Made by a program: the position numbers and the translations under genes. The notes under the pieces were generated by a model. The model ran no database searches. It was not told where the DNA came from and saw only the letters and a list, made by a program, of their open reading frames with translations. This document shows, piece by piece, positions 3,085 to 15,707 of a stretch of DNA of 64,000 nt. Numbering within the stretch: position 1 is the first letter of the stretch; each line of letters starts with the position of its first letter. The stretch comes from an uncultured Alphaproteobacteria bacterium (GTDB lineage Bacteria > Pseudomonadota > Alphaproteobacteria > UBA6615), in assembly GCA_943787445.1 (NCBI GenBank), contig CALSML010000026.1, positions 1 through 64,000 of the forward strand, read 5' to 3'.

Positions 3085-3198
3085 GAGACCCCCTGTCTGT
3101 AAAACAAAGATCGGAAGAAACCAGCCGATCTCGAAGCTTTGGTTACCATCTGCGTTCCGGCGGTCAGTTCTGCCAGACCAAGATGACGAAGAGGTTTG

Positions 3199-3227
3199 GA
3201 TGTAACCTGCCCGTACCGGTTCGTCAA
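3199..3227 (-). promoter_or_regulatory. Predicted promoter of the sdhCDAB operon
   Basis: On the minus strand TTGACG (3222-3227) is followed after 17 nt by TACATC (3199-3204), about 115 nt upstream of the sdhC start. Spacing and -35 are near consensus and the -10 is fair. Prediction by eye only. Confidence 0.45.
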
Positions 3228-3309
3228 TGTCACAGCGGGCCCAGGTCCTTGGATTTCAGGGAAATGTTTGACGAATTCTGATGTCCGGCCACGGCTCGCG
3301 CGGTCCGGA

Positions 3310-3358
3310 TGTGGAAAACCTGTGGAGGGATTGTGATCAGTGTCCCGAGTTTTGCACA
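3310..3358. promoter_or_regulatory. Two DnaA-box-like nonamers upstream of the structured RNA
   Basis: TTTTCCACA on the minus strand (3310-3318) and TTTTGCACA on the plus strand (3350-3358) both fit the relaxed DnaA-box pattern TTWTNCACA. They lie between the divergent sdhC promoter and the putative RNA gene. About four such matches are expected by chance in a window this size, so only their closeness and intergenic position make them worth noting. Confidence 0.25.
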
Positions 3359-3438
3359 GAAATCTCTCTTTCAGTCGTGATTGCGCGTTGCTCGCCGGTG
3401 CCCGGGCGGCCGAACATAATGGCGCATTTATTGGCGTG

Positions 3439-3468
3439 TTGACGTGTCTCTCGTCAGGCCGGAATCAC
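3439..3468 (+). promoter_or_regulatory. Weak candidate promoter for the structured RNA
   Basis: TTGACG at 3439-3444 is followed after 17-18 nt by GAATCA/AATCAC, a poor -10. Initiation near 3475 would place the first stable hairpin (3477-3504) right at the 5' end. Another possible -10, CATAAT at 3415-3420, has no good -35. The start of the RNA is therefore uncertain by about 50 nt. Confidence 0.22.
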
Positions 3469-3469
3469 C

Positions 3470-4281
3470 GTTCGTGGGGGTTCAGGCATTGCGGAGCGGA
3501 CCCCGAGGGGCCGCACCGGAGGATTGAGGCGGGACGCCGGATTCGAGTGAAGGCCGTAAGGTCATTGCATGAAGATGGGGGAAGTCAGCAGACGAACAGG
3601 GTTCTTCGGAACCACTCCCCTCGGTGGAGGTTCGTCACAACGTCCGGGTGTCCGATGCGGGAAACCGTGTTTGGGCAGGCCGGGCAAAGCCAGTTCATCT
3701 GCGCCGCGTCAGGCCGTCTTCGGACGACCGGATCGTGACAGGGTGAAACGGCGGGGAAGGTATCGTCACGCAGGTGGCGGTCGTTCTGGCAGGGTTTTCC
3801 GTTCGCGGAGGATGCTGTCGGTGAAACAGGCTTCGGCCTGATTTTGCAGGAATGTCCGTTGCGCTCTGCTCCAGGCTCTCGCCGGCCAGGAATTCAGAGA
3901 TGGCGCACCAGGATGAAAAGGCTGCCTCCGGGTGGCTGGATTGGAACGGGGTGGCACAGTGGCAGGACCGGACCTAAGGTTTCGGGTTCCTTCGGGAACG
4001 CGGACAGGGTGGTGGAAACACCGCCAAGTTCGGAAGTGACGTCGGATGGACCGTATCGGCCAGGGGTATGTTCCATCGGTGAAGCTGAACGAAGCTTTCG
4101 TTGGTAGATGCAAAGGGTCTGAAGCACCGGGGGCAACTCTGGCGCAGGAAGATCGGGAAGGCGTCAGGCGTTGAGGGCTCCGCGTCCATGCACCTGGCGC
4201 CTTCTGCTTTTCGGCTGCAAGTTCGGCGCAGGTTATACTGGACCACAAAAAAAGCCCGGTGCTTTGGCACCGGGCTTTTTG
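3470..4281 (+). ncRNA. Large structured non-coding RNA candidate (~0.8 kb), class not recognised
   Basis: No ORF here looks like protein, but the plus strand is full of hairpins with stable RNA tetraloops. C(UUCG)G loops cap perfect stems at 3600-3613, 3715-3726, 3827-3840 and 3986-3999; a G(UUCG)C loop caps a 7-bp stem at 3795-3812. GNRA loops cap 3552-3563 (GUAA), 3654-3671 (GAAA) and 4008-4025 (GAAA, 7 bp). Larger units: 3591-3597 pairs perfectly with 3630-3636 and encloses two hairpins (three-way junction); 3649-3653/3673-3677 and 3644-3647/3680-3683 extend the second GNRA hairpin; 4001-4005/4028-4032 stacks under the third; 4045-4050/4072-4077 and 4193-4201/4225-4232 (one bulge) form outer helices; 3477-3483/3498-3504 opens the RNA. 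An intrinsic terminator follows. RNase P, tmRNA, SRP, 6S and group II intron cores were looked for and not seen. Function unknown. Confidence 0.75.
4252..4280 (+). terminator. Strong intrinsic terminator, possibly bidirectional
   Basis: An 11-bp perfect stem (4252-4262 with 4267-4277) has a TTTG loop and is GC-rich, with five T on the plus strand and a seven-A run before it, which reads as U on the minus strand. It closes the structured RNA and insulates it from the pyridoxal kinase-like gene, whose start is 123 nt further on. Confidence 0.9.
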
Positions 4282-4403
4282 TCAGGCGTCAGAACCGGGC
4301 TCCGCATCCAGGCAAATGTATACTTCACGGGTATCAAGCCGGTTTCGCTTCGGTCAAACGAATTCTTGTGTACAGACGTGATTCCGTCGCATGAAGGTTG
4401 CCG

Positions 4404-5297
4404 ATGGTCGGAATTCTCTCAATCCAGTCGCACGTGGCTTTCGGTCATGTAGGCAATGCTGCGGTGGCATTTCCGCTGCAGACGCTCGGTCATGACGTTT
4501 GGACGGTGCCGACGGCCGTGCTCTCCAACCATGCAGGTTACCGGGAAACCAGCGGCGCGGTTTTACCAGTCGAAACGGTTCGCGATCTTCTCAACGGGTT
4601 GATCCCACGCGGAGTGGACGCGAGATGTGAGCTGATCCTGTCGGGATATCTAGGTTCTGTTCCCGTCGGGAGGGCTGTTCTGGAGACCGTGGCGCAGTTT
4701 CGTGCGACCCGCAGTGATGTCCGGTATTGTTGTGACCCGGTTATCGGGGATCGTGACAGCGGTGCGTATGTCGCCGATGGACTGTCCGAATTTTTTCGTG
4801 ATGTGGCACTTCCCGCGGCGAATATTCTGACCCCGAATCTCTTCGAACTCGAATGTCTGACAGATTGTACGCCTGGCGCGCTTGAAGGGGCGGCTCCCGG
4901 AGAGGTCATCCGTGCGGCCCGGCATCTGCTCGCGCGCATGCAGCCGGGTGGTTGTGTTCTGGTGACCAGCGCCGCAATGCCGGGTGGCTTGCCGGATCAC
5001 ATCGCCATGCTGGCGATCGAGCCTGAAACGGCATGGGGCGTGGAGACTTCACGCTATGGCTTCACGATACCGCCCCATGGCGCCGGGGACCTGGTTGCAG
5101 CCTTGTTTGCCGCGAATTATGTGCAAACTGGTGATGCGGCTACGGCGCTGGGGGATTGTGCCGCACGGCTGCATGGGGTTTTCGCCCAGACTGCCCGATG
5201 TGATGGTGCCGAACTTGAACTGGTCGCTGCGCGGACCGGAATTGTATCTCCGGATCAGAAATTCGAGGTCAGGTCCCTCGAACCCCGTGGCGCGTAA
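4404..5297 (+). CDS. pdxY: Pyridoxal kinase-like protein (PdxY/PdxK family)
   Basis: Ribokinase-superfamily kinase that phosphorylates pyridoxal to PLP in vitamin B6 salvage. The N-terminus MVGILSIQSHVAFGHVGNAA matches the IQSHVxxGHxGN start of PdxY. SNHAGY, SGYLGS, CDPVIGD, the LTPNLFELE segment and a C-terminal HGAGDLVAALF (catalytic Asp in GAGD) follow in the right order. Length is about 297 residues against about 287 usual. I prefer the ATG at 4404 over the TTG at 4398 because GAAGG lies six bases before it. It is a lone gene after the terminator of the structured RNA; LysE follows 94 nt later on the same strand. The symbol is by family similarity. Confidence 0.85.
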   Translation: MVGILSIQSHVAFGHVGNAAVAFPLQTLGHDVWTVPTAVLSNHAGYRETSGAVLPVETVRDLLNGLIPRGVDARCELILSGYLGSVPVGRAVLETVAQFRATRSDVRYCCDPVIGDRDSGAYVADGLSEFFRDVALPAANILTPNLFELECLTDCTPGALEGAAPGEVIRAARHLLARMQPGGCVLVTSAAMPGGLPDHIAMLAIEPETAWGVETSRYGFTIPPHGAGDLVAALFAANYVQTGDAATALGDCAARLHGVFAQTARCDGAELELVAARTGIVSPDQKFEVRSLEPRGA

Positions 5298-14644: not shown

Positions 14645-14963
14645 GTAGTCCGATACCATCGGGTTTTCGCCTGACAAAACCCTGCAGCAGAATTGAAAGT
14701 TATCCACATGAGGTTGCGCGACGGACAAAATCACCCGCCAACAGAGTAATTTACGCGTGCACACAAGTGTCGGAATGAAAACAGCTGTCCGTTCGTGTGT
14801 CAGGAATGCCGGAAATCAGTTCTGCACAAGCAAAGTGAGCCTGAAATTTGCGGGCACTGAAAATAGACACCAAGTAAAACGATAGACCGACTGGGTTTCC
14901 ACGTCACGACATATGGTCTCTCCCAAGATTTATTACGCTCCTATTACAGGGGAATGTCCTGGC
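14645..14963. other. Intergenic stretch between convergent genes with a hairpin and DnaA-type boxes
   Basis: No protein is seen. A 7-bp hairpin (14661-14667 with 14676-14682) follows chaC but lacks a U-run. A perfect DnaA box TTATCCACA is at 14700-14708, and a second identical one is at 14989-14997, just past the plsC stop. The stretch is richer in A/T than its surroundings. Confidence 0.5.
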
Positions 14964-15707
14964 TCAGATGTCGCGTTGTTCCACAACTTTATCCACAGGC
15001 AATCCACCAGCTTCCGCGATCAGTCGATCGGTTACTGTTTCGATTGCTATTTCAAGGCTTTGAACGAATTCCCGGCGCGTCAGATTGCGGGGCAATGGGG
15101 GCAGAATCTGGACGATGATTGTTCCGGGTCGCAATGCGAGCGAGCGCCGCGGCCAGAAAAGTCCTGAATTCAGTGCGACAGGCACGACTGGAACATTCAA
15201 GGCCGAATTCAGAGCTGCGATACCGGCATGATAGGGGTTTTTGAGCCCTGGGGTGACGCGGGTTCCTTCGGGAAAAATGACGATGGAACGTCCTTCGGCG
15301 ATACGTTGCTGGGCGGCCGTGATCATGCCCCGCAGCGCAGACAAGCCACCACTCCGGTCGATGGGCAGGTGTTTGACGCGCAACAGGCACCACCCAAAGA
15401 TCGGTATCCAGGTAAGCTCCCGTTTCAGAACGATGGCGGCATCCTGAACGATCAGATTGATCGCCAGAGTATCCCAGGCTGACTGATGCTTTACTGCAAA
15501 CAGCGCCGGTTTGGCAGGCAGATTTTCGAGGCCGCGCACGTCATGGGTCACGCCGGCCGTGACCTTCAGCAACCACAGCGACGTGCGAACCCAAAACCGG
15601 CTGAAGGCGAGCACCAGATCGCGCGGGCCGAGAAGAAGAGGCAGGACGATGACGGCAGCAAGTGTGCTCCAGCTGTAGAACAGTATCGTGAAAATGACAG
15701 GGCGCAT
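14964..15707 (-). CDS. plsC: 1-acyl-sn-glycerol-3-phosphate acyltransferase (PlsC family)
   Basis: Membrane-bound acyltransferase converting lysophosphatidate to phosphatidate; 247 residues from the ATG at 15707 (MRPVIFTILFYSWSTL). The longer ORF start at 15965 runs into the next gene and is unlikely. An N-terminal membrane segment precedes AVKHQSAWDTLAI (HX4D catalytic motif), and IVIFPEGTRVTPG is the second block. Five nucleotides after ydcF-like, so in the ftsE-ftsX-ydcF-plsC run. Confidence 0.92.
   Translation of the reverse strand: MRPVIFTILFYSWSTLAAVIVLPLLLGPRDLVLAFSRFWVRTSLWLLKVTAGVTHDVRGLENLPAKPALFAVKHQSAWDTLAINLIVQDAAIVLKRELTWIPIFGWCLLRVKHLPIDRSGGLSALRGMITAAQQRIAEGRSIVIFPEGTRVTPGLKNPYHAGIAALNSALNVPVVPVALNSGLFWPRRSLALRPGTIIVQILPPLPRNLTRREFVQSLEIAIETVTDRLIAEAGGLPVDKVVEQRDI

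Follow-up and report, generated by a model that had tools for sequence, protein, structure and literature searches.

Does the stretch of about 0.8 kb between sdhC and a pdxY-like gene, in DNA of an uncultured alphaproteobacterium, encode an RNA, and what could such an RNA do? The initial annotation had placed a large standalone structured RNA at 3470-4281 of the window (the whole analysed stretch of 64,000 nucleotides) and described it as devoid of a credible protein, dense with tetraloop-capped hairpins and closed by a strong intrinsic terminator. The locus was compared with its relatives by a whole-genome search for the large RNA, including the 24 genomes of the window's family (handle f1), and by a sampled survey of 385 genomes with strict filters. 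The elements assigned to the large RNA are as follows.

3388..3417, plus strand: putative promoter of the large RNA, with -35 TTGCTC (3388-3393), 18 bp and -10 GAACAT (3412-3417).
3424..4205, plus strand: large structured RNA of ~780 nt, supported by column-shuffle energies and helix mapping, without an Rfam match.
4036..4085, plus strand: helix capped by GUAUCGGCCAGGGGU, a motif near-invariant in the window's family.
4247..4281, both directions: intrinsic terminator common to the large RNA (plus) and a small RNA (minus).

Between genomes of the window's genus (84% identity), mismatches were distributed evenly over codon positions (0.17/0.15/0.17), and indels, nearly all of 1–2 bases, preserved the frame in only 2 of 35 cases in three genome pairs. 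Because of these even mismatches and frame-breaking indels, we consider the product to be an RNA and not a protein; a protein or small peptide in 3470-4281 was rejected on the same grounds, as the initial annotation had supposed. A blast of all-frame ORFs was uninformative since nucleotide conservation yielded matches in every frame. The start at 3470 could not be maintained: conservation, the promoter and the closing helix 3424-3436/4099-4111 place the inferred 5' end near 3424, about 45 nt earlier. TTGC and GAACAT of the promoter were near-invariant in the window's family, and TTGC following a T-tract was also kept in other families. At the other end lies the terminator (GC stem at ~4254-4277, A run before, T run after, position conserved in the family). 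Another RNA gene, convergent with the first, occupies 4247-4360. Full-length members of the window's family were 783–982 nt long.

The predicted tetraloop hairpins were present at their mapped positions. Four loops were of the C(UUCG)G type (3605-3608, 3719-3722, 3832-3835, and 3991-3994), a further UUCG loop closed by G-C was located at 3802-3805, and the GNRA loops were GUAA (3556-3559), GAAA (3661-3664 and 4015-4018) and GCAA (4133-4136). The fold of 3400-4285 had an energy of -411 kcal/mol vs. -369 ± 6 in dinucleotide shuffles (z = -7.3). Three clades of the window's family were folded separately, with column-shuffled alignments as the control. The folds comprised 296–331 base pairs, and their energies were better than those of the control (z = -16.9, -16.5, and -21.3). 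Compensatory changes between homologues, on which the first reading of the locus had been staked, were found in 68, 69, and 112 pairs vs. 33, 31, and 73 in the shuffled alignments (1.5–2.3 times the expectation, >5 sd in each clade). Among 65 aligned Rhodobacteraceae RNAs, 49 of 89 pairs showed compensatory changes (9.8 ± 2.9 in shuffles). Shuffle controls account for phylogeny only partly. Short motifs, e.g., CGTATCGGCCAGGGGT and the 3' hairpin, were near-invariant across family RNAs of 42–76% G+C, including where the G+C of the aligned RNAs drops from 0.65 to 0.42. The GUAUCGGCCAGGGGU motif was retained by nearly all family members, AT-rich ones included, and was not conserved outside the window's family. 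GGGCTCCGCRTCCA was considered as a genome-wide repeat and dismissed, its exact copies being concentrated in the locus itself.

According to cmscan of the whole window against Rfam 15 at the gathering threshold, there was no match at the large RNA and only a distant tRNA elsewhere; region 3100-4450 at E ≤ 10 gave only terminator-like or chance matches, and 18 related loci gave no match at the RNA. The covariance models of OLE, ROOL, and GOLLD matched neither the whole window at the gathering threshold nor 3100-4450 at E ≤ 10. Models of RNase P RNA (RF00010) and tmRNA (RF01849) did not match at the locus, and those of 6S and SRP RNA matched neither in the window nor at the RNA in the 18 related loci. 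The annotators' failure to recognise any of these classes was thus borne out. Like OLE, ROOL, and GOLLD, this RNA is long, hairpin-rich and non-coding, with tetraloop-capped stems. Unlike them, it matches none of their Rfam models, its conserved essence is a single 3' hairpin, its body ranges over ~100–980 nt, and it has a DnaA-box promoter and an antisense small RNA (sRNA) partner. No description of the locus was found in the literature, open-access papers only.

The large RNA was carried by 20 of the 24 family genomes. It was not detected in G007, G010, G012, and G016, two of which are <80% complete. Full-length relatives occurred in four other genomes of the window's genus (70–82% identity), and parts of the RNA in most others. 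At family loci with flanks at hand, the RNA had a divergent sdhC on one side and, downstream, a gene resembling pdxY or lysE; in family genomes without pdxY it still preceded lysE. Outside the window's family, this whole-genome search returned only terminator look-alikes. Loci L020 and L022 are terminator-only matches. Structure, covariation and synteny together make a standalone structured RNA gene without an Rfam match, representing an RNA family, a well-supported conclusion; its transcription is inferred.

Beyond the family, the part of the RNA that could be followed was its 3' end.

4155..4207, plus strand: widely conserved 3' hairpin, AAGGCGTCAGG..CACCTGGCGCCTT; its loop is GGGCTCCGCGTCCA (4175-4188), and T-rich sequence comes next.

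The R3 model scored 66 bits at this hairpin. All 11 pairs of the stem were formed in every one (100%) of 25 diverse sequences, and the loop carries CCGCGUC and usually also GCACCUG. The cross-family R3 model gave 40–52 bits in members of f65, f113, f124, f68, and f23 absent from its training set, and a 3'-domain model matched weakly in f23 and in f66, another alphaproteobacterial family. The f66 locus has the same plan in other letters: DnaA boxes, ~420 nt of tetraloop hairpins, a 3' hairpin (GAAGGTGTCAGG..CACCTGGCGCCTTC), and a terminator. The convergent sRNA is also there and contains CAGGUGC and GACGCGGAC, the counterparts of GCACCUG and GUCCGCGUC in the loop. The hairpin pattern occurred in at least 120 genome stretches; those listed were almost all from Rhodobacteraceae, plus Kiloniellaceae, f66 and the window's family, and a match in Desulfovibrio (L101) was treated as chance. 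The 3' hairpin with a DnaA box and usually an sRNA was found at ~115 sampled loci, mostly in Rhodobacteraceae but also in Kiloniellaceae and others; the RNA has relatives throughout marine alphaproteobacteria. Some f handles may coincide with named families. Absences in this class-wide survey mean little because few candidates were scored per genome.

Judging from ORFs, the neighbours of the RNA are lepA and an alpha/beta hydrolase gene in Rhodobacteraceae, and panC and a phosphoribosyltransferase gene in Kiloniellaceae; since neighbours differ between families, the RNA gene is freestanding. The sequence and length of the body also vary between families, from ~100 nt (f65) to ~980 nt (one clade of the window's family). 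The 3' hairpin and the upstream DnaA box persist across families, and the sRNA in most of them. The RNA had been called ornate, which is true of its structured body; the body is not the conserved essence, because in some relatives it shrinks to ~100 nt while the hairpin, the DnaA-box promoter and usually the sRNA remain.

Two parts of the locus had escaped the initial annotation, the DnaA boxes before the TTGC promoter and the convergent minus-strand sRNA. The boxes are located as follows.

3310..3362, no strand assigned: DnaA-box-like cluster of TGTGGAAAA (3310-3318), CTGTGGAGG (3320-3328), and TTTTGCACAGAAA (3350-3362).

The cluster was near-invariant in 20 aligned family loci. Boxes of the window's family are degenerate (TGTGGAAAA, CTGTGGAGG, TTTTGCACA) yet lie in the equivalent place, where relatives have TTATCCMCAAGAAATTT. 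Of 107 related loci, 41 contained a perfect TTATCCACA within the upstream 280 nt, where 0.1 would be expected judging by the remaining parts of these loci; boxes with at most one mismatch numbered 144 (3.0 expected). A module of TTATCCMCAAGAAATTT, a spacer and TTTTTnnTTGC was recognisable in f23, f65, f124, and Rhodobacteraceae, and with variations in f66, f68, and f113. The boxes thus recur at a constant position before the promoter, and their location ~30 bp ahead of the -35 element suggests that DnaA acts on the large RNA as an activator or a repressor, both binding and its effect on transcription being inferred. An oriC at the locus was rejected by GC skew, which does not switch sign near the locus in either G009 or G004. 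In a Roseovarius chromosome, the main skew switch (the inferred origin) was ~1 Mb from the locus, and two skew samples beside the locus were near zero or negative. Elsewhere in the window, two perfect boxes (TTATCCACA) 289 bp apart, at 14700-14708 and 14989-14997, lie in and beside the gap between ChaC-like and PlsC-like genes; no hairpin of the new RNA family was found at this site.

The second gene converges on the large RNA from the other side of the terminator.

4247..4323, minus strand: putative sRNA of ~75 nt, ending at the shared terminator.
4330..4357, minus strand: putative sRNA promoter, with -35 TTGACC (complement of 4352-4357) and -10 TGATAC (complement of 4331-4336).

The region just beyond the terminator (4282-4360) was near-invariant in the window's family. 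The sRNA promoter was conserved in all clades of this family, and GTTGAT..TATNNT occupied the equivalent place in Rhodobacteraceae. Some Rhodobacteraceae loci (e.g., L141 and L106) have a conserved inverted-repeat-like CAAnATnTnGTTG overlapping the sRNA -35 element, maybe an operator. In 18 family genomes, the R2 model of the sRNA matched the locus with E < 1e-12. The seed TGGATGCGGAGCCCG (complement of 4296-4310) is complementary to the loop of the 3' hairpin with one G.U pair (UGGAUGCGGAGCCCG to CGGGCUCCGCGUCCA). A second block, CTGACGCCT (complement of 4284-4292), is complementary to the 5' arm AGGCGTCAG of the hairpin (CUGACGCCU to AGGCGUCAG). Complementarity exceeded the maximum of shuffled controls in 59 of 115 loci, and the seed of the Rhodobacteraceae sRNAs coincides with their inferred 5' end. 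The base preceding CCGCGUC varies with pairing kept (A:U, U:A, C:G) and is unpaired in 37 of 100 loci; intermolecular covariation is confined to such flanking positions because the CCGCGUC:GACGCGG core hardly varies. The locus therefore has what an antisense pair requires, i.e., a convergent small RNA gene, conserved complementarity, and a conserved minus-strand promoter and terminator; expression, duplex formation and binding in the cell are inferred. The loci of f68, f8, and f60 revealed no sRNA complement in linkage, so the sRNA is either not essential to the family or encoded elsewhere. An apparent trans copy in f68 was dismissed, as it sits in a seemingly conserved coding gene.

We propose, with a probability of about 0.45, that this is a two-RNA regulatory locus in which the large RNA, timed by DnaA, acts as a decoy (sponge) that captures the sRNA, and both decay jointly. 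DnaA would control transcription of the large RNA and tie its level to the replication state. The sRNA would invade the 3' hairpin and form a duplex of ~20 bp; with its protecting or terminating hairpin gone, the large RNA would be lost together with the sRNA. The variable hairpin-rich body may mainly stabilise or scaffold the RNA. A bolder version, a class-wide DnaA-clocked switch in which the decoy sequesters a dedicated sRNA with targets tied to replication initiation and without a downstream protein regulator, seems doubtful to us at present.

Nearly as likely as the decoy is the possibility that the large RNA is itself the effector, acting on targets of its own as a scaffold or regulator, and that the sRNA is a mere antisense brake, without a peptide. 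The antisense RNAs of plasmid copy control or of type I toxin-antitoxin systems offer the comparison. This tentative alternative would explain the antisense geometry with the seed at the 5' end of the sRNA, the strong structural selection on the body, and the retention of the 3' hairpin where no linked sRNA was found; it is less easily reconciled with a body that differs in sequence and length from family to family, and with the lack of a conserved peptide. A type I toxin-antitoxin system proper was rejected: codon-position mismatches and indels within the window's genus leave no conserved toxic peptide.

The conserved boxes could also act as DNA. DnaA boxes beside an AT-rich stretch, conserved as a module in several families, might form a titration or reactivation site (datA/DARS-like) with an incidental transcript. 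We consider this improbable in view of the 68–112 compensatory pairs per clade downstream (about twice the expectation), the 49 vs. 10 in Rhodobacteraceae, the promoter spacing and the conserved antisense partner. The roughly ten-fold variation in body length, the many tetraloop hairpins and the second copy in a few genomes would suit a mobile or repeat-derived hairpin array without host function; such an origin is very hard to uphold, being largely refuted by the synteny fixed across the family and opposed by near-invariant motifs in RNAs of 42–76% G+C and by the ordered succession of promoter, RNA, terminator, and sRNA. A divergent housekeeping RNA (RNase P, tmRNA, 6S, or SRP), for which size and structure alone would speak, can practically be discarded, with the RNase P RNA (G000:C18:2811-3215, 290 bits) and alpha tmRNA (22 of 24 genomes) encoded at other loci of the family genomes and no match to Rfam at the gathering threshold or a relaxed one.

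In ColE1 (RNAI/RNAII) and R1 (CopA/CopT), the target of a small antisense RNA is a loop in a hairpin of a larger, structured RNA, and the context is related to replication. The proposed two-RNA locus resembles these plasmid pairs in the antisense recognition of a loop and differs from them in being chromosomal, in lying away from the origin, and in that its antisense RNA comes from a separate downstream convergent repeat, not from the strand opposite the target site.

In alphaproteobacteria, EcpR1 (PMC4414408) and CcnA (PMC8959179) are non-coding RNAs tied to replication and the cell cycle; their abstracts mention neither a DnaA-box promoter nor a large partner RNA. A Caulobacter RNA sponge is reported to sequester an sRNA by base pairing (PMC12559287), a principle that the decoy proposed here would share. 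The Rhodobacterales motifs HRC-8-4 (cco operons) and uORFC-8-2 (cysS) (PMC8632094) belong to other loci. The R. pomeroyi trans-RNAs of 311 and 351 nt (PMC4809877) could be this RNA, and for conserved Paracoccus sRNAs (PMC5107571) the question is undecided.

The family, new to Rfam, occurs in cultivable, manipulable genera (Ruegeria, Roseovarius, and Shimia). Its locus joins a large structured RNA, a conserved antisense partner and putative DnaA-box control, which are not usually seen together, and the 3' hairpin with its sRNA gives a visible handle on one of the large bacterial RNAs of unknown role. If the DnaA link is true, an RNA would connect replication control directly with gene control in alphaproteobacteria, by a route open to testing.

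Three genomes already having the 3' hairpin contain it a second time, at G326:C23 (L270), G206:C8 (L271), and G030:C10 (L272); the copy in G326 immediately precedes a LysE-family gene, the arrangement known from the window's family. Four Rhodobacteraceae loci (L098, L166, L180, and L193) contain a variant with the same stem and another loop (..CCGCTGCCGTCCATCACCTG), preceded by TTATCCACA ~625–700 nt upstream, which is perhaps a paralogous RNA.
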